In this document: positions 6,362 to 31,764 of the stretch, piece after piece
How positions within the stretch are numbered: the stretch's first letter is position 1
How the letters are laid out: every line of letters begins with the position of its first letter
Origin: Cellulophaga omnivescoria
GTDB lineage: Bacteria > Bacteroidota > Bacteroidia > Flavobacteriales > Flavobacteriaceae
Direction: 5' to 3'
NCBI RefSeq assembly: GCF_001999725.1
Contig: NZ_MDDP01000004.1
Span: 124,001 to 188,000 of the forward strand
Length of the DNA stretch: 64,000 nucleotides
Made by a program: the position numbers and the translations under genes
Notes under the pieces: model-generated
Seen by the model: only the letters and a program-made list of their open reading frames with translations
Database searches by the model: none
Told to the model about the DNA's origin: nothing

Positions 6362-9001
6362 CTAAAATAAAGTTGTTTGTTCAGTATCATCATCAGTAGA
6401 ATCATCTTTATCATCCGCTTTAGAATCCATAACCTCCTCCTTCTCTGTCACTTTCGTTTCTTTTAAAACCTCCTCTTCCTCTTCTACCTCTTCATAAGGT
6501 AAAGACTCTAGCACATTGGTATTTTTAATCTTGTCTGCGGTTAACTGATTACCTAAAGCTTTAATTCCCTTAACAGCTATAAAATCCTCTATATCAACCT
6601 CTTGATTTGGTTTCTGCTCTTTACCTCTAGGCTTTACAAATTCTAATTCCACAACCGGTCTCCAATCTGTAGATACCAACTCTAGAACAGACTTTGGATG
6701 CTCAGAAATAAACAACTCCTCCTTATTTTCATTCTCTATAAGAAAGCGCTTCACGTAATATCGCTCTTTTGCACCATCAAAATAAATAGCAGAAATAGGC
6801 TTTTTAGGGTTCCATTTTTCCAAAACTATCATATCCTCTTCAAAATGAGTTGTAATTTCTGGTTTAACAGTTTTTGCAATTCCCTTTTGAGTTATAATAA
6901 GAATTAAATCTTCCCCTTTAAACTCGCCAAGCAACTCTCCTCTACCATCTAAATTTAACTTACCCACCACATCATCAAACCAAATTTTCCGTGGTTTTAA
7001 TGTAGAAACACCTTTTTCTTTTAAGTCTATACGCTTAACTGCATATTTACTAACAATATTACCTTTTGAAGATCTACCTTTAATTAAAATATCAGAGAAA
7101 TTCATATCCCATTTTAACTTCTTAATACTCCCTACCTGTCTTAAGTGAATTGTCACCACTTCTGCTTCACCATTAGGATTTGCAGAAAAATAAAGAACAT
7201 CAGAATTTGGCTTCCCGGTAGTTAAGGGATACAATTTATCTCTGGTAACAGAGGTAACATTAAAACGCTTTATGTAGCTAGCTCCGCCTTTACCATCTTT
7301 ATAAATCATATTATAAGTGGTACGTTTGTCTTTTTTCTTAAATACAGCTACGTGTATAATATTTTTGCCTACAAATATTTTTGAATCTACCTTAGAAACC
7401 ATCATATGGCCATCTTTAGTAAAAACAATAATATCATCTATATCACTACAATCTGTAACATATTCGTCTTTCTTTAAAGATGTACCCACAAAACCTTCTT
7501 CTCTATTTACATAGAGTTTAGTATTTCTAATAACAACTTTTGTTGCTTCAATATCATCAAAAACTCTAATTTCAGATTTACGCTCACGATCTTTACCGTA
7601 TTTCTCCTTTAGATTTTTGAAATAATCTATAGCAAATTCTATCAAATGCTCTAGATTATGTTTTACCTCTGCTATGCGCTCCTCTAAACTATCAAGTAAT
7701 TGCTGAGCTTTATCTAAATCAAATTTAGAAATACGCTTTATTCTAATCTCTGTTAAACGAGTTATATCCTCCTCTGTAACAGCTCTTTTTAAATGTTTGG
7801 TATGCGGTTTTAAACCCTTATCTATAGCAGCTATAACACCTTCCCAGGTTTCTTCTTCTTCAATATCTCTATAAATTCGGTTTTCAATAAAAATACGTTC
7901 TAAAGAAGAAAAATGCCACTGCTCCTCTAACTCACCTAATTGAATTTCTAATTCTTCCTTAAGGAGTTGTACAGTATAATCTGTAGAGCGCTGCAACATT
8001 TCTGTTACCCCAATAAATAACGGCTTATTATCTTCTATAATACAACCTAAAGGCGAAATAGAAGATTCGCAAGCTGTAAACGCGTAGAGTGCATCTATAG
8101 TTTTATCTGGTGAAATACCAGCTGGCAAATGAACCAAAATCTCTACATCTGCAGCTGTATTATCTTCAATTTTTTTAATTTTTATTTTACCCTTATCATT
8201 GGCTTTTAAAATTGAATCTATTAAAGAAGAGGTGTTAGTCCCGTATGGTATCTCATTAATAACCAGAGTGTTTTTATCTAGTTGAGATATTTTAGCTCTA
8301 ACCCTTATTTTACCACCTCTAAGTCCGTCATTATAACCAGTAACATCTATAATTCCTGAAGTAGGAAAATCTGGGAACAATTTAAATTTTTGCCCTTTTA
8401 AATGCTTAATAGAAGAATCTATTAATTCTATAAAGTTGTGCGGAAGAATTTTAGTTGATAAACCCACTGCAATACCCTCTGCACCTTGCGCAAGTAATAA
8501 TGGAAACTTAACTGGTAGGTTTACAGGTTCTTTTTTACGGCCATCATAAGATTGTTGCCATTCAGTAATTTTAGGACTAAACACAACATCTAAAGCAAAT
8601 TTAGACAACCTAGCTTCTATATACCTAGACGCCGCCGCCCTGTCTCCTGTTAATATATTACCCCAGTTACCTTGCGTATCAATTAAAAGATCTTTTTGCC
8701 CTATTTGCACCATAGCATCTGCAATACTCGCATCTCCATGCGGATGATACTGCATTGTATGCCCTACTACATTTGCAACTTTATTATACCTTCCATCATC
8801 TAACTCTTTAAGCGAGTGCATAATTCTACGTTGCACAGGCTTAAAACCGTCTTCTATAGCAGGTACAGCACGTTCTAAAATTACATAAGAGGCGTAATCT
8901 AAAAACCAATCTTTATACATCCCAGTGACCTTTGTAAGCTCATCTTGTGGATTGTTTGCGTTATTATCTAGATTTTCGTTAACTTCTTCGTTCTCTTCCA
9001 T
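6362..9001 (-). CDS. parC: DNA topoisomerase IV subunit A
   Basis: An 879-residue type IIA topoisomerase breakage-reunion subunit. The N-terminal winged-helix domain contains QRR at 57-59, and the active-site Tyr127 sits in RAAASRYIEA. A long coiled-coil spans roughly 340-480, a beta-propeller-like region follows, and a very acidic tail runs from about 830 to the end. ParC cleaves and rejoins DNA to decatenate replicated chromosomes. The parE gene lies 31 bases upstream on the same strand. The pairing and the ParC-like length favour topoisomerase IV over gyrase; a GyrA-box was not identified. Confidence 0.93.
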   Translation of the reverse strand: MEENEEVNENLDNNANNPQDELTKVTGMYKDWFLDYASYVILERAVPAIEDGFKPVQRRIMHSLKELDDGRYNKVANVVGHTMQYHPHGDASIADAMVQIGQKDLLIDTQGNWGNILTGDRAAASRYIEARLSKFALDVVFSPKITEWQQSYDGRKKEPVNLPVKFPLLLAQGAEGIAVGLSTKILPHNFIELIDSSIKHLKGQKFKLFPDFPTSGIIDVTGYNDGLRGGKIRVRAKISQLDKNTLVINEIPYGTNTSSLIDSILKANDKGKIKIKKIEDNTAADVEILVHLPAGISPDKTIDALYAFTACESSISPLGCIIEDNKPLFIGVTEMLQRSTDYTVQLLKEELEIQLGELEEQWHFSSLERIFIENRIYRDIEEEETWEGVIAAIDKGLKPHTKHLKRAVTEEDITRLTEIRIKRISKFDLDKAQQLLDSLEERIAEVKHNLEHLIEFAIDYFKNLKEKYGKDRERKSEIRVFDDIEATKVVIRNTKLYVNREEGFVGTSLKKDEYVTDCSDIDDIIVFTKDGHMMVSKVDSKIFVGKNIIHVAVFKKKDKRTTYNMIYKDGKGGASYIKRFNVTSVTRDKLYPLTTGKPNSDVLYFSANPNGEAEVVTIHLRQVGSIKKLKWDMNFSDILIKGRSSKGNIVSKYAVKRIDLKEKGVSTLKPRKIWFDDVVGKLNLDGRGELLGEFKGEDLILIITQKGIAKTVKPEITTHFEEDMIVLEKWNPKKPISAIYFDGAKERYYVKRFLIENENKEELFISEHPKSVLELVSTDWRPVVELEFVKPRGKEQKPNQEVDIEDFIAVKGIKALGNQLTADKIKNTNVLESLPYEEVEEEEEVLKETKVTEKEEVMDSKADDKDDSTDDDTEQTTLF

Positions 9002-9032
9002 AAAGAAAGACTCGTGTTTATCTGGTTTATAA

Positions 9033-10889
9033 TTAGTTGTCCTCGATTAAATCAAGTTCTACTTTAAGATTTTCTATAATAAATTTTTGACGATCTGGTG
9101 TATTTTTCCCCATATAAAAACTTAACAATTGCTCAATTGACATTGCCTTGTCTAGCATTACAGGTTCTAAACGAATATCATCACCAATGAAATGTTTAAA
9201 CTCATCTGGAGAAATTTCACCCAAACCTTTAAATCGGGTAATTTCTGGTTTACCAGTTAACTTTTCTATTGCTTCAGCCTTTTCCTCTGGACTATAACAA
9301 TAGTATGTTTGTTTTTTATTACGAACTCTAAAAAGAGGCGTTTGTAATATATACAAATGATTTTCCTTTATTAATTCTGGGAAAAACTGCAGAAAAAAAG
9401 TAATTAATAACAATCTAATATGCATACCATCTACATCGGCATCTGTTGCAATTACAATATTATTGTAACGCAAATCTTCCATAGACTCTTCTATATTTAA
9501 AGCTGCCTGCAATAAATTAAACTCTTCGTTCTCATACACAATCTTTTTAGACATTCCGTAAGAGTTTAAAGGCTTACCACGCAAACTAAAAACTGCTTGG
9601 GTATTAACATCTCTAGATTTAGTTATAGATCCAGATGCAGAATCTCCCTCGGTAATAAATAAAGTAGACTCTAATCTTCTGTCCTTTTTAAGGTCTCCCA
9701 AGTGAACACGGCAATCTCTTAGTTTTTTATTATGCAGACTGGCTTTTTTAGCTCTATCTCTTGCAAGCTTACGAATACCAGACAAGTCTTTACGCTCGCG
9801 TTCTGCTTGTATTATTTTACGCTGTAACGCTTCTGCTGTTTCAGGGTTTTTATGAAGGTAATTATCTAAATACTTACCAACAAAATCGTTTATATAAGTA
9901 CGTACAGTTGGGTAGTTACCTCCCATATCTGTAGAACCAAGTTTTGTTTTTGTTTGACTTTCAAAAACAGGCTCCATTACTTTTATTGATACTGCAGAGA
10001 TAATTGACTTTCGAATATCCGAAGCCTCATAACTTTTCCCGTAAAAATCCCTAATTGTTTTTACAATAGCCTCTCTAAAAGCAGATTGATGCGTACCACC
10101 TTGTGTGGTATGCTGACCATTAACAAAGGATTGATACTCTTCACTATACTGTGTTTTACTGTGTGTTATAGCTATTTCTATATCATCTCCTTTTAAATGA
10201 ATAATAGGATACAGTAAATCTTCAACATTATTATTATCTTCTAAAAGATCTTTAAGTCCATTTTCTGAAAAATATTTTTCTCCATTAAAAACTATAGTCA
10301 ATCCAGGATTTAGGTACACGTAGTTTTTAAGCATACGTACTACATACTCATTTCTGTATTTGTAGTTTTTAAATATAGTTTCATCTGGTGTAAACGAAAC
10401 TTTTGTACCTTTTCTTTTAGAGCTATCTACAGGACCTTCTTCTGCAACTAAATTACCTTGACTAAACTCTGCCCATTTAGATTGCCCTTCTCTTGAAGAC
10501 TCTACTTTAAAAAAGTTAGACAAAGCGTTTACAGCTTTGGTACCTACACCATTTAATCCAACAGATTTTTTAAAGGCTTTAGAGTCGTACTTACCACCAG
10601 TATTCATTTTAGATACTACATCTACAACTTTACCTAGCGGAATACCACGACCATAATCGCGAACCTTAACTAAATTATCTTTTATGCTAATTTCTATGGT
10701 CTTGCCTGCACCCATTACAAACTCATCTATACAGTTATCTAAAACTTCTTTTAAAAGAATGTAGATACCGTCATCTGCAGATGAACCATCGCCTAATTTA
10801 CCAATATACATACCAGGACGCATACGAATATGCTCTTTCCAGTCTAAGGAACGTATATTGTCTTCAGTATATTTAGTATTGTCTGACAT
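9033..10889 (-). CDS. parE: DNA topoisomerase IV subunit B
   Basis: A 618-residue ATPase subunit of topoisomerase IV, close to the usual ParE length and without the insertion typical of many GyrB proteins. The GHKL ATPase features are visible: catalytic Glu48 in KEVLDN, RGIP at 81-84, and [10 protein letters not shown] at 111-120. The TOPRIM motifs are EGDSASG near 412 and DADVDG near 481. It forms an A2B2 complex with ParC, encoded just downstream. It is probably the first gene of a parE-parC unit. No clear promoter was found in the 229-base gap upstream. Confidence 0.95.
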
Positions 10890-20530: not shown

Positions 20531-21109
20531 ATGCTAGTAAATCAAAAACAATTTAACGAACAACTTCTTTTAAAAGAAGTATATAAAGGCAATATAAATG
20601 CCTACGAAACTATATTTAACACATATTGGAAAAGACTTTATTTATACGCTTTTAAAGTTTACGAAGATGAGTCTTTATGTGAAGATATAGTACAAGAAGT
20701 TTTTATAAACTTTTGGGAACGCAGAGAAAGTTTAAATGTAATTAAACTAGAAAACTACCTTTTTAAATCTGTTAAATACAAAATGGCAAACGCTATTAGA
20801 GATTTAAAATTTACAAACATACACTTATCTAAGCTTTTAGATCTTCCAACAGACAGTTCTCAAGAAAACACTGTAGAATATAAAGAACTTCAGCAAGAAA
20901 TAAACTCTGTGATTGCTACACTACCAGATAAATGTAAAAAAGTATTTATTATGAGTAGGTTTGATGATCTTACAAATGCAGAAATAGCTGCAGAACTAAA
21001 CTTATCTATACGCACTGTAGAGACACATATTAGTAATGCTATTAAACACTTAAAAAATAATTTAAGCACCACTTCTCTTTACGCTAGCATTATTCTAATG
21101 TTAACTTAA
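20531..21109 (+). CDS. ECF sigma-70 factor, Bacteroidota FecI-like family
   Basis: A 192-residue ECF sigma factor. Region 2 spans about 22-90 (YLYAFKVYEDESLCEDIVQE, then VFINFWERRE), and region 4 about 125-180 with the helix-turn-helix NAEIAAELNLSIRTVETHIS. In Bacteroidota these factors transcribe a linked SusC/SusD or TonB receptor locus when the receptor signals through FecR. Here the linked genes are fecR at 21219 and the STN-containing SusC at 22273. It is the first gene of the uptake locus. Confidence 0.93.
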   Translation: MLVNQKQFNEQLLLKEVYKGNINAYETIFNTYWKRLYLYAFKVYEDESLCEDIVQEVFINFWERRESLNVIKLENYLFKSVKYKMANAIRDLKFTNIHLSKLLDLPTDSSQENTVEYKELQQEINSVIATLPDKCKKVFIMSRFDDLTNAEIAAELNLSIRTVETHISNAIKHLKNNLSTTSLYASIILMLT

Positions 21110-21218
21110 TATCACTAAAACAACCCGCAGATTAACCAATTGTTAAAAGGCTTGTTTTTTAAAAAATTGCTTACGTGTACTCCTTTGTTTTTGTGACTAC
21201 CTAGTAAAAGCAATAACA

Positions 21219-22157
21219 TTGAAGAAAGAAGAATTTATAAAAATTACAGAAAAGTTTTCTAAAGGTACAGCATCAGAAAAGGAAGAGAATATTGTTTCTA
21301 CCTTTTTTGATTCATTGCAAGATAAAGAAGTAAACACAGACATTACTAATGAAGCACGAAAGCAAAAAATGTTTGACGCTATTAAGGCAAAAACCGTTAA
21401 ACAGTCTAAAAAAACAACTTTTGTGAAAATTGCTGCTGCAATAATACTATTTATAAGCTTAGGTACATTTGTTATACATACTATTACTAAAGAAACCATA
21501 GTAACTTATGCTACAGTAAAAGGTGAACGAAAAAATATAACGCTACCAGATGGAAGTTCTATTTTTCTAAATTCAAAAAGTAGTATTTCTTACGCTAAGG
21601 AATTTACAAATAACAGAAATGTAACACTAAATGGTGAAGCATTTTTTAAGGTTACCAAAGACAGCCTAAACCCTTTTAGCGTAGAAACTAATACCATAAA
21701 AACTACAGTATTAGGTACATCTTTTAATATAAGCTCCTACCCTAAAAACAATGCTAAAGTAACTGTAAACACAGGAAAGGTAAAGGTACAAATGATTACA
21801 GATTTAAGTAAGCAACTGTTTTTAACAAAAAATCAAAGCGCTACTTATGTTTATGGTTCTTCTAATTTAGAAAAAAGCACAAGTAATGCTAACAATTACA
21901 ATGCTTGGACCAAAAATACTTTGTGGTTTAAAGACAATAACCTAAAAGAAGTTTCAGAAAAATTAGAGAATTGGTTTAATGTAAAAATTACAATTAAAGA
22001 CCAAGATTTAGAATCATTAAAACTTACGGGTACTTATAAAAATCCAAAATTAATTGAGGTATTGGAAAGTATTAAATTCCTAAAAAACATTGAATATACT
22101 ATTACAAACAACCAAATAACAATACTAAAAACTAAAAATGAAGAAATGCCTATGTAA
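21219..22157 (+). CDS. FecR-type anti-sigma factor
   Basis: A 312-residue inner-membrane regulator that starts with TTG. A cytoplasmic sigma-binding region (about 1-68) and one membrane segment (about 69-90, VKIAAAIILFISLGTFVI) come first. A periplasmic FecR domain follows (about 100-195, TLPDGSSIFLNSKSSISYA), then a C-terminal DUF4974-like domain (about 230-300). It transmits the state of the outer-membrane transporter to the ECF sigma encoded upstream. The TTG start is supported because the next internal ATG would remove much of the sigma-binding region. Confidence 0.92.
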   Translation: MKKEEFIKITEKFSKGTASEKEENIVSTFFDSLQDKEVNTDITNEARKQKMFDAIKAKTVKQSKKTTFVKIAAAIILFISLGTFVIHTITKETIVTYATVKGERKNITLPDGSSIFLNSKSSISYAKEFTNNRNVTLNGEAFFKVTKDSLNPFSVETNTIKTTVLGTSFNISSYPKNNAKVTVNTGKVKVQMITDLSKQLFLTKNQSATYVYGSSNLEKSTSNANNYNAWTKNTLWFKDNNLKEVSEKLENWFNVKITIKDQDLESLKLTGTYKNPKLIEVLESIKFLKNIEYTITNNQITILKTKNEEMPM

Positions 22158-22171
22158 AACAAATAAAAAAA

Positions 22172-22197
22172 CCCATTTCTGCGGGAACAGTAATGGG
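22172..22197 (+). promoter_or_regulatory. Stem-loop in the fecR-susC intergenic region
   Basis: CCCATT (22172-22177) and AATGGG (22192-22197), extended by CTG/CAG inside, make a hairpin 76 bases before the susC ATG. On the forward strand no T-run follows, so it is not a standard terminator. It may be an mRNA stability or leader element, or a partial attenuator between the regulator and the transporter genes. Confidence 0.5.
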
Positions 22198-22272
22198 CTA
22201 TAATGAATCTTCAAGCCTAAAACTTGAAAAAAACTTTAATAAAGACTTATCAGTTAACACTAAAAAGCCAAA

Positions 22273-25200
22273 ATGAAATCAAATTTACAAAAAAAGCTAA
22301 TGAAAAAACTCAAATCATATATAAAACTATATTTTGTCATTAGTCTTGTATTAACATCCAACATAATGTTGGGTTTTAATCAACCAGAAAAAATATCAGT
22401 AATTTTAAATAAAGTTAGTTTAGACAAGGTTTTTAAAGCAATAGAAAACAAAACAGAATACACCTTTGTTTATGATAATAGTATTGTTAAAAATACTACC
22501 AAAAAAAACTACAATTACACTAATACTACACTTAAAGAAATATTAGCAAAACTTAGTGAAGAAGAAAAAATTGCATTTAAAGTTATTAATAAAACAATAA
22601 CTGTTGCTAAAAAAACCAAACAGTTAAAGACAATTAAAGGAATTGTTATTGATAAAGATAACATACCATTAGCTGGAGCAAGTGTACTAATTAAAGGAAC
22701 TAAAACTGGCACAACAACAGATTTTGATGGTAAATTTTCTTTAGACATTAATGTGCAAGCTACCACCCTAATTGTTAATTATATGGGGTTTGAGTCTAAG
22801 GAAATTACAACAGATAACCGCTCTTTTTACCAAATAACTTTAGAGGAAAACGTTAATGCCTTAAACGAAGTAGTTGTAACAGCTTTAGGTATTAAAAGAG
22901 AAGAAAAAAAATTAGGTTATGCACAACAAACCGTTAAAGGAGAACAATTAACAGACGCACGCCCTAATAACTGGTCTGATGCTTTACGCGGAAAGGTTCC
23001 TGGTTTAAATATTCAATCGTTAGGCGGACCATTAAATTCACAAGAAATAAAATTAAGAGGAGACAGCTCTTTAAACCCTGGTAACAATGCAGCTCTGGTT
23101 GTTGTAGATGGTGTTCCTGTTACTAGTGGTTTAGCATCTACAGGTGCAAGTAATTCCTATATGGGAGGTGATGCATCTAATGATACACCTGTAGATTTAG
23201 GTAATGGAATATCTGACCTTAACCCTGAGGATATAGAAAGCGTATCTGTATTAAAAGGAGCTGGCGCAGCTGCTTTATACGGTTCTAGAGCAGCAAACGG
23301 TGTAGTTATCATCACAACAAAATCTGGAAAAAAACAACAAGGTTTAGGAATTACTTTTAGTTCTAATACCAAGTTTGATGTAGTCACTAGATACCCTGAT
23401 TACCAATATGAATATGGACAAGGTAGTGGTAAAGGAAGTTATCTAAAACCTGATGGAAGCACTTATTACACTTACGGAGCTTCTGAAGACGGAAAAAGTA
23501 CTGCTGGTAGTAGTAGTGCTTTTGGCCCTAAGTTTGAAGGGCAATATTATTTTCAGTACGACCCCACTGTTGAGGGACAATCATTAGAGCGTCAATTATG
23601 GCAACCATACAAAAATAATAGAAGTGATTTTTGGCGTGTAGGTAGCACACTAACTCAAAATTTAGCAATTCAGGGTGGTAATGATAAAGGAAGTATGCGT
23701 GCTTCTCTTACACATTCTAAAAATGAATGGATTATGCCAAACACTGGTTTTGATCAGCTTTCAATATCCGTAAATAGTAAATACCAAATAACAGATAATG
23801 TAAAAATTAGTTCTGTTGTTAATTATAGAGACAGAAATAGTGATAACCTTCCTGGAACTGGTTACAACAACCACTCCATAGCTTATTTTATGATTTTTCA
23901 GAATCCTAATGTAAACTTAGATTGGTACAGACCTATTTGGAAAAAAGATAAAGAGGGTTTAAGTATGATAAGACCTTATAGTAGTTATATAGACAACCCT
24001 TACGGTATTGCATATGAGGTAGAAAACACATTAGAGCATGATGCTGTTACTGGTAACATACGTGCAGATATTAATCTTACTCCTAAGTTAGATTTAATGT
24101 TGAGAACCTCTTTAAACTCTTACAACAAAAATGCAGAACAACGTAGACCGTATGATATAAACAGGTATAAAACTGGTTATTATAAAACAACTAGTATTTT
24201 TAAAAGAGAAGTTAATTCTGATTTTTTACTTACCTATAATAACACTATTAAAAACATAGATTTAAATGCTTCTGTAGGTGCAAATGCAATGGTTTACAAG
24301 TACAACAGATTAGATTCTTGGACTGTTGGTTTAGAAACACCTGGCATTTACAACCTTGTTAATGGTACAAACCTTTTTACAAATGAGTATGAAGGAAATG
24401 AAAAAGTAAATAGCCTTTACGGAATGTTATCATTAGGCTTTAATAATAAGTTATTTTTAGATATTACTGGACGTAATGACTGGTCTAGTACATTACCAAA
24501 AGAAAACTGGTCGTTCTTTTACCCATCTGCAAATGCCAGCATACTTTTAAATGAAATATTTACACTACCAATTGCTATAGATTTTGCTAAACTTCGTTTT
24601 TCTTACGCTAAAGTTGGTAATGATGCACCACGTTATAGCACTAAAAAATACTTTGGCAGAAGCGGTTATGAATTTGCGAGTTCTGCAGTGGCACCTACTA
24701 CTTTATATAATACAGAATTAAAGCCAGAGCAAACTACAAGTTATGAGGCCGGTTTAGACATTCGCTTATTAAAAAACAGATTAAGTTTGGATGCTGCTGT
24801 TTATGAAACGTTTACAGATAATCAAATTTTAAAAGTTCCATTAGCACAAAGTAGCGGTTATAGTTACGCTTGGATTAATTCTGGAGAAGTACGCAACAGA
24901 GGTGTAGAATTGACTTTAAAAGCAACTCCTGTAAAAACTAAAAACTTTAACTGGAATACTACAATGACGTGGTCTACTAATAAAAGTAAAGTAATGAGTT
25001 TAGATGACAGACTAGAAGGTAAATTACAAATGATGAGCTCTTCTAATGCTAGGCTTGTTGCAAAAGAAGGTGAATCTGCAACAGCTTTATACGGTAGAGG
25101 TTTTGAAAGAAATGAAAACGGAGATATTTTATATACAGACAATGGTTACCCTATAAAAACTGATGACGACATTTATATAGGAGAAACTACTCCAGATTGG

Positions 25201-25731
25201 CGTGCGGGCTTCATTAATTCTTTTAAATACAAAAACCTTAGACTTAATATGGTCATAGATGGCCAATATGGAGGTGTAATTTACTCTCACACACACCATA
25301 AATTAACTCAGCAAGGAAAACTAAAACACACTTTACGTGGTCGTGAAGAAGGTGAACTTATAGGCAAGGGTGTTGTAGATAACGGAGATGGTACTTACAG
25401 ACCAAACACTACTCCTTTACCAATTGCGGTGTATTATGATAAGCATTATGAACGTGTAAATACAGAAGCCAATAGTTTTGATGCTTCTTTTGTAAAGTTA
25501 AGAGAGGTTAGTTTAGAATATAAAGTTCCTGCTAAATTTTTAAAATCGCTATTTATATCTAGCGCTAGTTGTTCTGTTTACGGAAGAAACTTGGGCGTAT
25601 GGACAGACTTTCCTATTTATGATCCAGAAGTTGCTGCACAGGCAGGTGGCACAAATATTTTTACAGGTGTAGAAGTAGGACAATTACCTGTTGCAACAGA
25701 ATTTGGTTTTAATGTAAAATTAGGACTATAA
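22273..25731 (+). CDS. SusC/RagA-type TonB-linked outer-membrane transporter with STN domain
   Basis: An 1152-residue transporter. After the signal region (about 1-36) comes an STN signalling domain (about 40-105, SVILNKVSLDKVFKAIENKT). A CarboxypepD_reg-like domain follows (about 117-195), then the SusC plug (VLKGAGAAALYGSRAANGVV near 330) and a long barrel. The STN domain contacts FecR, so substrate passage can switch on the ECF sigma. The ATG at 22273 or the one at 22300 gives a similar signal peptide. SusD follows 18 bases later. Confidence 0.95.
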   Translation: MKSNLQKKLMKKLKSYIKLYFVISLVLTSNIMLGFNQPEKISVILNKVSLDKVFKAIENKTEYTFVYDNSIVKNTTKKNYNYTNTTLKEILAKLSEEEKIAFKVINKTITVAKKTKQLKTIKGIVIDKDNIPLAGASVLIKGTKTGTTTDFDGKFSLDINVQATTLIVNYMGFESKEITTDNRSFYQITLEENVNALNEVVVTALGIKREEKKLGYAQQTVKGEQLTDARPNNWSDALRGKVPGLNIQSLGGPLNSQEIKLRGDSSLNPGNNAALVVVDGVPVTSGLASTGASNSYMGGDASNDTPVDLGNGISDLNPEDIESVSVLKGAGAAALYGSRAANGVVIITTKSGKKQQGLGITFSSNTKFDVVTRYPDYQYEYGQGSGKGSYLKPDGSTYYTYGASEDGKSTAGSSSAFGPKFEGQYYFQYDPTVEGQSLERQLWQPYKNNRSDFWRVGSTLTQNLAIQGGNDKGSMRASLTHSKNEWIMPNTGFDQLSISVNSKYQITDNVKISSVVNYRDRNSDNLPGTGYNNHSIAYFMIFQNPNVNLDWYRPIWKKDKEGLSMIRPYSSYIDNPYGIAYEVENTLEHDAVTGNIRADINLTPKLDLMLRTSLNSYNKNAEQRRPYDINRYKTGYYKTTSIFKREVNSDFLLTYNNTIKNIDLNASVGANAMVYKYNRLDSWTVGLETPGIYNLVNGTNLFTNEYEGNEKVNSLYGMLSLGFNNKLFLDITGRNDWSSTLPKENWSFFYPSANASILLNEIFTLPIAIDFAKLRFSYAKVGNDAPRYSTKKYFGRSGYEFASSAVAPTTLYNTELKPEQTTSYEAGLDIRLLKNRLSLDAAVYETFTDNQILKVPLAQSSGYSYAWINSGEVRNRGVELTLKATPVKTKNFNWNTTMTWSTNKSKVMSLDDRLEGKLQMMSSSNARLVAKEGESATALYGRGFERNENGDILYTDNGYPIKTDDDIYIGETTPDWRAGFINSFKYKNLRLNMVIDGQYGGVIYSHTHHKLTQQGKLKHTLRGREEGELIGKGVVDNGDGTYRPNTTPLPIAVYYDKHYERVNTEANSFDASFVKLREVSLEYKVPAKFLKSLFISSASCSVYGRNLGVWTDFPIYDPEVAAQAGGTNIFTGVEVGQLPVATEFGFNVKLGL

Positions 25732-25749
25732 CACATAACAATATATACT

Positions 25750-27180
25750 ATGAAAACTATAAAATTTTTACTTTTTTCAAGTTTAATCTTAGTGCAACTA
25801 ATTTCTTGTACATCAGATTTTGAAGAAACAAATACAGATCCAAACAAGCTAGAAAACATAACAGCTGGTAGCGCCATTAATCCAATTATTTATTCCTTAG
25901 CAGTACGTAATGCTAATGAAGCTCGTAATAACAATTTTGGCCTAATGCAGGTTTTTTATAGAATAGATGATTTATCTGGACAACCATTTTTATATGACTT
26001 AAGAACAGATATAGGAGCCTCTTTATGGAGAGATTATTACAAAGCGCTTACCAATATTGTAGAAATGGAAAAAGCTGCTATATTAGAAGAAAAAGTAAAC
26101 TACCAAGCGGTTGCTTTAACCTTAAAAACCTATGCTTTCTCTATACTAACAGATACTTTTGGTGATATTCCTATGACTGAGGCTTTACAAGCTGAGGCCG
26201 GTATTCTTTTCCCTAAATTTAGCACACAAGAAGAAATATACACACAGTTATTAGCAAATTTAGAACAGGCTAATAATTTGTATGATGTATCTGTGGGTAT
26301 GGTTTATGAAAATGATATTCTTTTTGATAATGATGTAACTAAATGGCAAAAGTTTACAAACTCATTACGCTTACGCTTACTACTACGTATTTCTGGTAAA
26401 AAAGACACTTACCAAGAAATGGTTTCAATACTAAATAACCCTAGTAAATATCCTGTTTTCACTTCTAATGAAGATGCAGCTGTTTTAAACGTAACAGGTG
26501 AAGCCCCAAACCTATCTCCTTGGGACAGAGCTTCAGATTTTGGTTTATTTAGGTATTATGGCGATTTTTTCATAGATAACTTAAACAAATTTAAGGACCC
26601 GCGTAGAAGCATATACGCTACACCAGCAAGAGGTATAAATGATGAAGACTTAGGATACATTGGTCAACCTATAGATTTTAGTAATAATCCGTTACCAAAC
26701 AATATTGCTAGTGCTTCTGGTATAAATCAAGAGCAAATAATAGCTCCAATGATTATTCCTCTTATGACCTATTCAGAACTAGAATTTATTAAGGCTGAAC
26801 TAGCTCAAAAAGGTTATTTAACTAATGCAGAAATTGCTTATAACAACGGTGTTACTGCTGCTATAGAGTTATGGGGTGCAGAAGTTCCTACTGATTATTT
26901 TGACAATACTGATGCAGCTTACAACAATACGCTAGAACGCATAATGTTACAAAAATACTACGCTTTATATTTAACAGATTATCAATCTTGGTTTGAGCAC
27001 AGAAGAACTGGGTTTCCTGTTTTACCTACTACTGATGCTATGTTTAATGACAAAAAAATGCCAAGTCGCTTTTTCTATCCAATTGCTGCTAGTACTTTAA
27101 ATAGTGACAATTACCAAGAAGCTGTAAACCGTATTGGAGGTAATGAAATTAATGTAAAAGTTTGGTGGGATAACAACTAA
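25750..27180 (+). CDS. SusD/RagB-type surface lipoprotein
   Basis: A 476-residue substrate-binding lipoprotein that forms the lid of the SusC channel. The signal peptide ends in lipobox LISC at about 17-20. The mature start TSDFEETNTDPNKLENI, followed by a TPR-like region (ALTLKTYAFSILTDTFGDIP), marks the SusD-like_2 branch, in which the ligand is often not a glycan. It is encoded 18 bases after susC and 10 bases before the phosphoesterase gene, so the four genes form one operon. Confidence 0.93.
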   Translation: MKTIKFLLFSSLILVQLISCTSDFEETNTDPNKLENITAGSAINPIIYSLAVRNANEARNNNFGLMQVFYRIDDLSGQPFLYDLRTDIGASLWRDYYKALTNIVEMEKAAILEEKVNYQAVALTLKTYAFSILTDTFGDIPMTEALQAEAGILFPKFSTQEEIYTQLLANLEQANNLYDVSVGMVYENDILFDNDVTKWQKFTNSLRLRLLLRISGKKDTYQEMVSILNNPSKYPVFTSNEDAAVLNVTGEAPNLSPWDRASDFGLFRYYGDFFIDNLNKFKDPRRSIYATPARGINDEDLGYIGQPIDFSNNPLPNNIASASGINQEQIIAPMIIPLMTYSELEFIKAELAQKGYLTNAEIAYNNGVTAAIELWGAEVPTDYFDNTDAAYNNTLERIMLQKYYALYLTDYQSWFEHRRTGFPVLPTTDAMFNDKKMPSRFFYPIAASTLNSDNYQEAVNRIGGNEINVKVWWDNN

Positions 27181-27190
27181 AAAGCACACA

Positions 27191-28675
27191 ATGGAAAATA
27201 GAAGAAAATTTTTAAAAAAATTAGGAATTACTGCTGGTGGTATATCTACAATTGGTGGCTTATCTCCCATTTTTGCAAATACCAAAGAGCAATTAGTAAC
27301 CAATAAGCACATTAAAATTAATGGGCGCGTTACTACAAATGGTAAAGGTATTGCTAAAGTTCAAGTTACAGACGGACAGCAAATTGTGCTTACAGACCAA
27401 AATGGTAATTTTAATTTTTTAAGCAATAGTAACAGAAAGTTTGTATACATTACACAACCTGCAGGGTTTAAAATAAACCAACTAGAAAATGGTTCTGCAG
27501 ACTTTTTTAAACATATGGATGCTACTAAAAAAAATAATGAGTTCTTGTTTGAACTAACACCTAGTGTAGTTTCAGATAATGAACATCATTTTTTATTACT
27601 TGCAGACCCTCAAATACAAAGTAAATATGAGGCCCAGCAATTGTTAAACGTGGCTACACCAGATTTTATTAATACTGTAAAAGATATAAATCATCCTAAT
27701 ACATTTGGTATTGGGTGTGGCGACTTAGTTTTTGATAAACTAGAATTATTTAAAGACTATAACCAATCAATAAAAAATACAAATGTACCTTTTTACCAAG
27801 TTATTGGTAATCATGATATGGATTTAAATGTGCGTAGTGATAAAATGACAACAACTACCTTTGAGTCACTTTTTGGTCCAACATACTACTCTTTTAATCG
27901 TGGAGAAATACACTATGTTGTTTTAGACGATGTATTTTTTATTGGTCAGGATAAAAAATATATTGGTTATATAAATGAAGAACAACTTGCTTGGTTAGAA
28001 CAAGACTTAAGTTTTGTAGAACCAGGAACAACAGTTGTGGTATCATTACATATACCAACTTATACCGGTGCAGTACGCCGTTATCCAGAAAGAGATGTAA
28101 TGGGAGGTGTTGTTAGTAACAGAGCATATTTATACAAAATACTAGAACCTTACAATACTCATATAATGTCTGGTCATACTCATTTTAATGATAATATGGT
28201 TGCTAAAAGCAGGTTTGAGCATTGTCATGGAACCGTTTGTGGTGCTTGGTGGAGTGGCCCTATTTGTTGGGACGGAACTCCTAGTGGCTATGGCGTATAC
28301 TCTGCAAAAGGTTCAGATTTTAAATGGTATTATAAATCTATTGGACACGATAAAGATTACCAGTTTACAGTCTATAAAAAAGGAGAACATCAAGACCATA
28401 AGGATAAATGGTGTTTAAATGTATGGAACTGGGATCCGGAATGGCAAATTTGTTGGTATGAAGACGGAATTAAAAAAACTGACGTATCTAAAATTATGGC
28501 TTTAGATCCACTTAGCATTAAACTACATACCGGACCAAAATTACCTGAAAGAAGATCATGGGTAGAGCCACAATTAAATGATCATATGTTCTTTTTTACG
28601 CCAAATGAAAAAGCAAAAACTATTACTGTTGAGGTTACAGATAGGTTTGGAAATACATACTCACAAACAGTATAA
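27191..28675 (+). CDS. Exported calcineurin-like metallophosphoesterase
   Basis: A 494-residue enzyme with a Tat-type signal (NRRKFLKKLGITAGG). A beta-sandwich domain (about 38-125, INGRVTTNGKGIAKVQVTDG) follows, then the metallophosphoesterase core. Motifs in order: Asp139 in LLADPQ (Gln141 stands where the usual DxH has His), GD at 177-178, GNHD at 206-209, a His in VVSLHIPTY near 285, and GHTH at about 328-331. A C-terminal extension ends in a small beta domain. It should hydrolyse a phosphomonoester or phosphodiester outside the cytoplasm. Position in the SusCD operon makes it the substrate-processing enzyme. Confidence 0.9.
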   Translation: MENRRKFLKKLGITAGGISTIGGLSPIFANTKEQLVTNKHIKINGRVTTNGKGIAKVQVTDGQQIVLTDQNGNFNFLSNSNRKFVYITQPAGFKINQLENGSADFFKHMDATKKNNEFLFELTPSVVSDNEHHFLLLADPQIQSKYEAQQLLNVATPDFINTVKDINHPNTFGIGCGDLVFDKLELFKDYNQSIKNTNVPFYQVIGNHDMDLNVRSDKMTTTTFESLFGPTYYSFNRGEIHYVVLDDVFFIGQDKKYIGYINEEQLAWLEQDLSFVEPGTTVVVSLHIPTYTGAVRRYPERDVMGGVVSNRAYLYKILEPYNTHIMSGHTHFNDNMVAKSRFEHCHGTVCGAWWSGPICWDGTPSGYGVYSAKGSDFKWYYKSIGHDKDYQFTVYKKGEHQDHKDKWCLNVWNWDPEWQICWYEDGIKKTDVSKIMALDPLSIKLHTGPKLPERRSWVEPQLNDHMFFFTPNEKAKTITVEVTDRFGNTYSQTV

Positions 28676-28690
28676 CATTACAAAAACATT

Positions 28691-29935
28691 ATGAAAAAAC
28701 ATATAATTACAAGTGTATTATGCGCTGCTTTTGCTGCAATAAGTTGCCAAACAGAGGCAATAGACACAACAGAGGACGTTGTAGCTACACCTTCTAATAC
28801 AGGTATTAACTACGTAGATGAAAGTGCTTTTATAAACTCTTTAAGTACAGAAACTTTCCTTAACCCAACAGATATTAGCCTAAACAGGAATGCTACAACT
28901 GCTGGTTACAACCAGGTTTATGGTTTTAATATTCCGGAAGATAACCAAGTTTTAGGTTTTAAATGGAATACTGGTGACCAAAACACTACAGATTGGAGAC
29001 CACAGGGAATAACTGGTTTTACGTGGAATCAGAAACGGTTTTTACTAGCAACTTGGTATGGTATTGGCCCATCTAATATAAACGGAGTTGAAAACCAACA
29101 TAAAGGAGTTAGAATTTCTTTGGTAGATATCACAAACCCAAACAACATAACTTACCGCCATATACTATTAGTACAAGACAAAAATAATATTAGTAACCCA
29201 AAGTTATTTAAGGCTACAAATAGTTATGATCAGTTAAATTTGTTTGCACCGGTTACCGTACACGCTGGTGGTGTAGCTTATGCAAATCAGAAAATATATG
29301 TAGCTTCTACTAGTTTAGGATTACGTGTTTTTGATTTAAATAATATTATAGCTGTTAGTTCAGACAATACCAAAAACAAAATTGGCCAAGATGCAAACGG
29401 AGATTTAAAGGCTTTTAATTATGGGTATATTTTACCGCAATCTGGATATTATGATATTTTAGATGGAGATCCTTTTTCTTGTGTATCATTAGGAGAAAAC
29501 ACTACTGGTAATAATATGCTTTACACATCACAATATAAAACAAGTAGCAGCAGTATTATACCTTCTGTTTACGGTTTTAACCTATCAAGCAACGGAGATA
29601 TTGATACTTACATAACGGCAGAAATAAGTGTTCCTAAAGATAATGCATCTGGCAATAACGGACCACTTTACAATATACAAGGTGTTTATAGAAAAGATAG
29701 CACAAGTGTTTTTGCTGTTACAGGTAAAAGTAGTTATAAAGGTTCTACAGCAAGATTAGTGCGTTACACAGACGGTGAAGCATCTGGAACAAGATATAGA
29801 TGGCCACATGGAGCTGAGGATTTTTACCTTGAAAAAAGCACAGGATTATTATGGAATTTAACAGAGTATGAAACCTCTAAGTATGGTGAAGAAAACAGAA
29901 CAGTATTTGCCGTACGTTACGCTGACTATAATTAA
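28691..29935 (+). CDS. Predicted lipoprotein of unknown function in the SusCD operon
   Basis: A 414-residue protein with a lipoprotein signal (MKKHIITSVLCAAFAAISC, Cys19). I do not recognise the family. The mature protein is beta-rich with repeated short blocks such as RPQGITGFTWNQKRFLLATW, GVRISLVDITNP, AYANQKIYVASTSLGLRVFD and IQGVYRKDSTSVFAVTGKS, which look like blades of a propeller. It lies 15 bases after the phosphoesterase and is the last gene of the locus. A surface-bound binding protein or a second hydrolase is possible; no catalytic motif is evident. Confidence 0.8.
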   Translation: MKKHIITSVLCAAFAAISCQTEAIDTTEDVVATPSNTGINYVDESAFINSLSTETFLNPTDISLNRNATTAGYNQVYGFNIPEDNQVLGFKWNTGDQNTTDWRPQGITGFTWNQKRFLLATWYGIGPSNINGVENQHKGVRISLVDITNPNNITYRHILLVQDKNNISNPKLFKATNSYDQLNLFAPVTVHAGGVAYANQKIYVASTSLGLRVFDLNNIIAVSSDNTKNKIGQDANGDLKAFNYGYILPQSGYYDILDGDPFSCVSLGENTTGNNMLYTSQYKTSSSSIIPSVYGFNLSSNGDIDTYITAEISVPKDNASGNNGPLYNIQGVYRKDSTSVFAVTGKSSYKGSTARLVRYTDGEASGTRYRWPHGAEDFYLEKSTGLLWNLTEYETSKYGEENRTVFAVRYADYN

Positions 29936-30061: not shown

Positions 30062-30544
30062 TTAATTTAACTGGTACCACTCAATATTTTCTAAATTAGC
30101 ACGTCTACCCATACTTTTGGGTGCGTAATTTTTAGCTAAGTAGTTTACTATAATCTCTTCATTATTTCCTAAATCCCAAAGGTTTTGGGTTTCTTGCATC
30201 CATCTAATTGTAGCTATCCAACGTTCTTTAGTCATTCTGTTTTGAGTAACCATTTTGGCAGAGTGGCAGCTAGTACAATTATTCACCACAGTCATTAACC
30301 CATCATCCTCTACAAAACCTGTTCTTATGTGTATCCCATTTTCAATTTTGTCCCAATCACCTTCTTCAATAGTGTTTTCTATTACAACAGTTTGCAATTC
30401 TTCATCTGTATTAAAAGCAGAAAAATTTGGATCTACAAGCGCATAAATAGCAAATACTACTCCCAAAAGCACTACACACCACACCATAATAAGCATTCTG
30501 TATACCTGCTTAGCCTGATTTTTAAACTTGTTTTCTTTGCTCAT
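30062..30544 (-). CDS. Monoheme cytochrome c, SorB-like electron acceptor
   Basis: A 160-residue protein anchored by one N-terminal membrane helix (about 17-36) with a single heme motif CTSCH at 90-94. The VNNCTSCHSAKMVTQNRMTK region, followed by a tryptophan-rich helix, resembles the cytochrome subunit of SorAB sulfite dehydrogenases. Its ATG overlaps the stop of the molybdoenzyme gene by one base (TAATG), so the two are translationally coupled. It should take electrons from that enzyme and pass them to the respiratory chain. Confidence 0.87.
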   Translation of the reverse strand: MSKENKFKNQAKQVYRMLIMVWCVVLLGVVFAIYALVDPNFSAFNTDEELQTVVIENTIEEGDWDKIENGIHIRTGFVEDDGLMTVVNNCTSCHSAKMVTQNRMTKERWIATIRWMQETQNLWDLGNNEEIIVNYLAKNYAPKSMGRRANLENIEWYQLN

Positions 30545-31764
30545 TATTTCACTTTTACAGCTATTCTATGACAAGCATTGTTTAAATATCCTTTAGGGTT
30601 CCAGCCAGGTACAAGCATTGGCTGTGCTACATTATTTACATCTGTTGCCCTAGCCCAAACCTCATAATACCCTTTTTCTGGAAATGTAATTGCTGCATTA
30701 AAATGCTGCCACGCTAACCTGTTTACAGGTTTTTCTAGGGTACAGGTATTCCAGGTAGCACCAAAGTCTATAGAAAACTCCATTTTAACCACCTCTAATT
30801 CTCCTGCCCAAGCGTGTCCGCGAATGTTTAGTTTTTTACCCAAATCTATCATTGCTCCAGATTTAGGATAAGTAATTAAAGATTTTACAGGCATAGACTC
30901 TATAATTTTCATATCCACGTCTTTAACCTTTTCTCCTGGGGCAACCGGATTCTTTGGCACTCTGTAAGCCGGAGCTTTCATTTTAGCACCATCATGTTCT
31001 TTGTTTCGTACACTAATACCATTTAGCCATTTCCCAGATGTAGATGCTGGCCAACCACCACATACCAAACGCAAAGGATAACCGTGAGCCGCTGGTACAT
31101 CTTTACCGTTCATTTTAAAAGCAACCAAAGTTTCATCTTGTAAAGCTTTACTCATTGGCACGCCTCTAGAGATAGGCTCTTTGTTAGGGTTTCTACTAAT
31201 ATGTGAGTCTGCTGCGTGGTATCCAATATAAATAGCAGAATCTTTAATACCTACATCATCAAGTATATCTTTAAGTCTAACTCCTGTCCAACTTGCGCAA
31301 GATACAGCACCAACAGTCCATTGGTTTCCTTTAGCAGGCGGATTAAACTCAGATCTACCATTACCGCCACACTCTATAGTTAATTGGTAAGTATACTGTT
31401 TAAATTTAGATTTTAATTCTGATAAAGTGTATGATTTTTTCTGCTGAACAGATTCGCCATCTATGGTAAGTGTCCATTTAGAGATGTCTATATTTTCTGG
31501 CGGAATACCATTATTTCTAATAAACATATTTTTGTTAGATGTTACTTTTTCATCTAGCAAATGTGCTTTAGCTTCAATATTCCAAGGCTTATCATTTAAA
31601 ACAACCATTTCCTTATCTAAATTAAACAAGGTAAATGGATCTGTTTCTTGTAAAGCTAAAGGTTGGTAATTTACGGGCATTTTAGAACCAAAAACAATAT
31701 CAGCTCCAATAATACCAGCCATAGTAGTTAAGGATGCCTTTTTAACAAAGTTTCTTCTTTTCAA
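30544..31764 (-). CDS. Sulfite-oxidase-family molybdoenzyme, SorA-like
   Basis: A 406-residue exported molybdopterin enzyme. A Tat signal (KRRNFVKKAS, then GIIGADIVFG) is followed by the molybdopterin domain with Cys156 (VSCASWTGV) as the molybdenum ligand, then a C-terminal dimerisation domain (about 290-406). There is no heme domain within the chain. The likely reaction is oxidation of sulfite to sulfate with transfer to the adjoining cytochrome c. A related but different substrate cannot be excluded. Two small membrane protein genes and folE lie upstream on the same strand. Confidence 0.9.
   Translation of the reverse strand: MKRRNFVKKASLTTMAGIIGADIVFGSKMPVNYQPLALQETDPFTLFNLDKEMVVLNDKPWNIEAKAHLLDEKVTSNKNMFIRNNGIPPENIDISKWTLTIDGESVQQKKSYTLSELKSKFKQYTYQLTIECGGNGRSEFNPPAKGNQWTVGAVSCASWTGVRLKDILDDVGIKDSAIYIGYHAADSHISRNPNKEPISRGVPMSKALQDETLVAFKMNGKDVPAAHGYPLRLVCGGWPASTSGKWLNGISVRNKEHDGAKMKAPAYRVPKNPVAPGEKVKDVDMKIIESMPVKSLITYPKSGAMIDLGKKLNIRGHAWAGELEVVKMEFSIDFGATWNTCTLEKPVNRLAWQHFNAAITFPEKGYYEVWARATDVNNVAQPMLVPGWNPKGYLNNACHRIAVKVK

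Follow-up and report, generated by a model that had tools for sequence, protein, structure and literature searches.

The six genes at 20531-29935 on the + strand of the 64,000-nucleotide stretch of Cellulophaga omnivescoria DNA analysed here (the window) probably encode a self-regulated outer-membrane system that scavenges organic phosphodiesters; the likeliest substrates are head groups of glycerophosphodiester type or small diesters resembling them. Almost all SusCD transporters are interpreted as importing sugars, whereas the SusD clade of this pair tracks a phosphoesterase family. If this reading is true, part of the large SusCD repertoire would serve the acquisition of phosphorus (and perhaps of glycerol or head groups), and a SusD of this clade, with at least 44% identity, together with a MetallophosC enzyme would allow phosphoester SusCD loci to be recognised simply from sequence. 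The ECF/FecR pair also makes the inducing compound testable.

An ECF sigma factor, a FecR protein, SusC, a SusD-like_2 protein, a metallophosphoesterase and a lipoprotein are encoded in one direction (Table 1), all six open reading frames lying where the preliminary description of this DNA had placed them, with the small gaps that it had claimed. In locus order the gaps are 109 and 115 bp between sigma, FecR and SusC, followed by 18, 10 and 15 bp, so that the genes from SusC through the lipoprotein are spaced by 10-18 bp. Profile searches of the gene content of the locus found no glycoside hydrolase, lyase, sulfatase or peptidase, which confirms an absence already asserted for all of these except lyases. 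The upstream neighbours, encoding DUF937 and DUF6146 proteins, are unrelated. So are those downstream on the opposite strand (30062-31764), a molybdopterin oxidoreductase of the sulfite-oxidase type and a small CxxCH-containing partner.

Table 1. Features of the phosphoesterase SusCD locus, in window positions
Feature	Position	Strand	Basis
ECF sigma factor, Bacteroidetes FecI-like	20531..21109	+	TIGR02985, Pfam sigma-70 r2/r4
FecR-type anti-sigma/sensor, one predicted membrane span	21219..22157	+	PF04773 + PF16344
Hairpin in fecR-susC spacer, possible leader/attenuator	22172..22197	+	spacer fold, compensatory changes
SusC/RagA TonB-dependent transporter, N-terminal STN-like domain (~residues 44-114)	22273..25731	+	TIGR04056/TIGR04057
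SusD-like_2 surface lipoprotein, putative substrate-binding lid	25750..27180	+	PF12771
Tat-exported (predicted) metallophosphoesterase	27191..28675	+	PF16371 MetallophosN + PF16370 MetallophosC
Lipoprotein, predicted beta-propeller	28691..29935	+	no Pfam/NCBIfam match

The sigma factor and FecR are clear assignments. The sigma factor matches NCBIfam TIGR02985 at 150 bits (cut-off 126), and its orthologues, at 41-54% identity, head the same locus in relatives. FecR matches PF04773 (E 2e-18) and PF16344 (E 6e-17) in Pfam; its start codon, TTG, was picked mechanically, and the true start may differ. SusC matches NCBIfam TIGR04056 at 656 bits, SusD matches Pfam PF12771 at E 7e-129, and the short gap between them makes an adjacent SusC/SusD pair. 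The nearest solved homologues of SusD are 5j5u and 3mx3; in the Pfam search PF14322 stayed below its cut-off on this protein (21 versus 27 bits) and PF07980 was not reported. In the window protein itself, the STN domain claimed earlier for SusC does not reach the Pfam cut-off (18 versus 28.4 bits, with an overlapping FecR_C match at 20.7), but it is visible in homologues, two of six of which carry STN (best E 4e-8) and five of six FecR_C.

Folding of the spacer between fecR and susC revealed a hairpin directly after an A-run. It recurs in most relatives, with double (compensatory) changes at 6 of the 7 consensus pairs, and is missing from 3 of 4 other fecR-susC spacers examined. Rfam has no match for it, nor for any other part of the locus. 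The hairpin may be an attenuator or a processing site that sets the levels of regulator and transporter apart. Sigma-70 promoter-like matches were no commoner in the locus than in shuffled sequence, and were disregarded.

The phosphoesterase has a MetallophosN, a catalytic and a MetallophosC domain, the two terminal ones both above their gathering cut-offs (PF16371 83.1 bits, PF16370 169.6 bits), and is the only copy of this enzyme found in the host genome (3.8 Mb, 51 contigs). All the dimetal motifs are present (Dx[H/Q] as DPQ, GD, GNHD, H287 and GHxH as GHTH), which places the metal ligands at D139, Q141, D178, N207, H208, H287, H329 and H331. Among 41 homologues these residues are invariant except at position 141, where 38 have Q and 3 have H. 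ADPRibase-Mn also uses DxQ as its first motif, and its Gln27 has been modelled as metal-coordinating (PMC4334965). Export by the Tat pathway is likely, since 39 of the 41 homologues have an RRxF twin-arginine motif and TatC is encoded in the host genome. The predicted structure (pLDDT 85) is closest to the glycerophosphodiesterase GpdQ (Z 23.9, rmsd 2.3 A over 225 residues), followed by the Rv0805 phosphodiesterase (Z 22.4), the ADPRibase-Mn prototype 2nxf (Z 21.8) and purple acid phosphatases (Z ~19-21). The scores of GpdQ, Rv0805 and ADPRibase-Mn are so close that the fold does not choose between diester types. By sequence, the closest solved protein is a monoesterase, the wheat purple acid phytase (profile E 1.4e-9). 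The modelled fold is thus that of a dimetal phosphoesterase leaning to diesterase, and it does not fix the substrate.

With SusD as query, and without reference to the enzyme, we searched 199 genomes of the family, the window included. The matches fall in two groups, ten places at 51-100% identity and 57 at 31-39%. A MetallophosC phosphoesterase lies within 8 kb of all 10 close SusDs (the window among them) versus 5 of the 57 distant ones (Fisher p ~1e-8, shared ancestry not corrected), and on account of this difference in adjacency we do not regard the gene arrangement as due to chance. The contrast loci with more distant SusDs hold other genes. In the genus of genome G127 (inferred to be Flavobacterium), 17 of 19 SusDs at 44-54% identity adjoin the enzyme, again with ancestry uncorrected; the other two SusCD relatives are without it. 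The enzyme family adjoins SusCD in Flavobacteriaceae, in Hymenobacter/Pontibacter relatives, in Chitinophaga and in Mucilaginibacter. In Algoriphagus (L057-L061, L068), the same phosphoesterase follows a PhoD-like phosphatase, with no SusCD alongside.

Judged by gene order in the homologous loci, the first five genes (sigma, FecR, SusC, SusD and phosphoesterase) are a conserved unit. The nearest relatives, G021 and G142, keep this order, with identities of 36-70%, but have no lipoprotein gene in the locus. Sinomicrobium pectinilyticum (L047) has the identical six-gene set, and in S. weinanense (L048) the locus is longer, with a second phosphoesterase as well as the lipoprotein. Strict co-conservation of all six genes is rejected, as the lipoprotein is missing from the five-gene loci of G021 and G142 and stands alone in other genomes; the five-gene unit holds, and the lipoprotein is a sporadic though recurrent addition, as in L047.

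In the SusD clade, the phosphoesterase gene is directly followed by one for a glycerophosphodiester phosphodiesterase (GDPD) at 6 of the 10 loci of the family sample and, in Flavobacterium, at 11 of 19; a GDPD was called by BLAST similarity to two references taken from related loci, both above the cut-off for PF03009. Among the 70 nearest complete loci of enzyme homologues from named genomes, SusC and SusD are both present in 55, and in 17 a GDPD is encoded no more than six genes away. When 71 same-strand neighbours were scanned, DUF5689 lipoproteins were commonest (23), with PhoD-like phosphatases (7) and PF04185 phosphoesterases (5) also present, and neither glycoside hydrolase nor sulfatase was among the 25 commonest families. 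A PLD-like protein is an additional partner of the enzyme in relatives. The recurring theme among the neighbours is phosphodiester hydrolysis. Another phosphodiester-type SusCD combination is L041 (G040, 7077-10737), an ECF/FecR locus whose SusCD is different and which also encodes a MetallophosC-type enzyme, a PLD-like protein and a member of the endonuclease/phosphatase family.

The window locus itself is without GDPD, and the three GDPD genes of the host genome are elsewhere. On contig C49 (L139, G000:C49, 6974-11385), a TonB-dependent receptor, a 317-aa exported protein and a GDPD are encoded in a row, a candidate for a second phosphodiester uptake cluster; as it follows a TonB-dependent receptor, this GDPD could complement the locus. 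On another contig of the host (L140, G000:C27, 5424-7280), a second Tat-signal metallophosphoesterase-like protein is encoded beside a GDPD-type protein.

The lipoprotein has no family match in Pfam or NCBIfam. Its N-terminal Cys19 is kept in homologues, and it is modelled as a beta-propeller (pLDDT 78, pTM 0.83); the propellers that match its fold, with 5 or 6 blades, are generic ones. GH43 enzymes are among these matches, and a GH43-type glycosidase was considered and not adopted: glutaminyl cyclases and designed propellers match equally, identity is 6-14%, and there is no Pfam or profile match. Phytase and PhoX propellers are not among the fold matches listed, which is not evidence of unrelatedness. 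A first scan of genome contigs with the lipoprotein alone gave no relatives, and alignment-based searches later did. In unbiased searches it was present in 3 of 199 genomes of the family and 6 of 395 of the phylum, the host included in both. One homologue (G173) is inside an MPE/GDPD SusCD locus, another (G142) inside a different SusCD locus that also encodes a PHP and a GDSL protein; five homologues stand apart from loci of this kind. The further linked copies in L047, L048 and L206 turned up when the enzyme or SusD was the query, and show recurrence rather than frequency. In L206 the order is sigma, FecR, SusC, SusD, an MPE of the other subfamily, GDPD and lipoprotein.

From the gene content, families, linkage, metal-ligand positions and Tat-type signal, all read from the sequence, we infer a direction of transport, a substrate class, a periplasmic site of action, an order of steps and a mode of regulation. 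The SusD-like lid at the surface would bind the phosphodiester and hand it to SusC for TonB-energised import. Binding of substrate would be signalled through the STN-like domain of SusC to FecR, releasing the ECF sigma factor for transcription of the locus, possibly under an extra control by phosphate starvation. In the periplasm, the Tat-exported GpdQ-like dimetal phosphoesterase would cleave the diester, and a second enzyme would complete the reaction: the GDPD next door in many relatives, and here possibly the one behind the TonB receptor on contig C49. At the cell surface, the beta-propeller lipoprotein probably has an accessory part, in binding or in hydrolysis.

That a phosphorylated organic compound is taken up had been proposed from the gene set, and the proposal is supported by the kept metal-ligand positions, by the SusD clade that tracks the enzyme family and by the GDPD, PhoD, PLD-like and PF04185 partners in relatives. 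The class of compound is where readings diverge. The phytase as best solved sequence match and the strong fold matches to purple acid phosphatases might indicate a purple-acid-phosphatase- or phytase-like monoesterase acting on phosphomonoesters such as inositol phosphates or sugar phosphates. We hold this to be unlikely: GpdQ and Rv0805 are higher by fold (Z 22-24 versus 19-21), the recurrent neighbours are phosphodiesterases (GDPD, PLD-like), and DxQ, the first metal motif, is shared with ADPRibase-Mn. That same motif, together with the folds of 2nxf and of Rv0805, a cyclic nucleotide phosphodiesterase, would suit a nucleotide-like substrate (cyclic nucleotides, nucleotide-diphosphate alcohols such as CDP-choline, or oligonucleotides), which is quite improbable given that genes for a nuclease, a nucleotidase or nucleoside uptake do not recur among the neighbours tallied, whereas GDPD does. 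One might also think of a phosphate-bridged polymer from other bacteria, of glycerol-phosphate teichoic or capsular type, which the propeller would trim on the outside and the phosphoesterase on the inside. SusCD systems classically import oligomers, and both PhoD and GDPD (GlpQ), families that include known teichoic-acid enzymes, adjoin the phosphoesterase in relatives; this reading is nonetheless very unlikely, as the locus has no dedicated surface endo-enzyme that we could identify, and the propeller no recognisable active site or family.

Scavenging of small phosphodiesters is the reading that we prefer, and the evidence, in which GpdQ is the best fold match, narrows the earlier list of compounds (nucleotide, phospholipid head group, teichoic-type polymer or similar) towards phosphodiesters. 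It is possible, though on the doubtful side, that the locus belongs to an undescribed, phylum-wide SusCD (SusD-like_2) lineage dedicated to glycerophosphodiesters or to polymers of glycerol phosphate, in which two phosphoesterase subfamilies are interchangeable and a new surface propeller would itself bind or cleave phosphodiesters.

Among characterised proteins, GpdQ of Enterobacter aerogenes shares with the window enzyme the fold of the catalytic domain and the pattern of metal ligands except the second; the window enzyme differs in its extra N- and C-terminal domains, its Tat signal, its DxQ in place of DxH and its ~16% identity. ADPRibase-Mn shares the fold and the unusual DxQ motif, but belongs to an ADP-ribose/CDP-alcohol diphosphatase family with specificity regions of its own, and a family-level sequence relationship to the window enzyme is not shown. 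Polysaccharide utilisation loci of the ECF/FecR SusCD type have the same order of sigma, FecR, SusC (with an STN or STN-like domain), SusD and enzymes; the window locus differs from them in lacking glycoside hydrolases, lyases, sulfatases and peptidases.

A literature search on SusD with GDPD or teichoic acid returned no described system of this make-up, and only the papers on PUS loci were relevant. Scavenging of phosphodiesters by SusCD is, according to Lidbury et al. (ISME J, PMC8115612), already known in outline from phosphate-starved Flavobacterium, whose phosphate utilisation systems PUSI and PUSII combine SusCD with exported phosphoesterases and are proposed to serve it. No other described systems come as close to the window locus. 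As described there, they have in common with the window locus the SusCD pair, the exported phosphoesterase or phosphoesterases, the ECF sigma or FecR genes and the lack of glycan enzymes. The F. johnsoniae PUS loci with ECF sigma or FecR genes, regulator genes included, are reported in the same paper to be strongly induced by phosphate depletion. With this precedent, the earlier claim that the window locus would be induced by substrate rather than by phosphate starvation is unsupported, and the two modes are not exclusive. From what is described of them, PUSI enzymes are PF00149 and PF16670 proteins, whereas that of the window is of the MetallophosN/MetallophosC type, and the propeller lipoprotein does not appear in the descriptions of PUSI and PUSII. 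PusD1 and PusD2 are given as PF07980/PF14322 and the window SusD is PF12771, a difference that excludes PUSI and PUSII and not PUS in general. PUS loci are defined in that source by phosphate response and enzyme neighbours, PusD being polyphyletic, and six PusCD forms in three SusD subclades are reported; SusCD co-located with a predicted exported phosphomono- or phosphodiesterase, without carbohydrate enzymes, is a PUS feature that the window locus displays. On these descriptions the locus may be a further, phylum-wide member of a PUS-like class, set apart from PUSI and PUSII and perhaps itself among the six PusCD forms.
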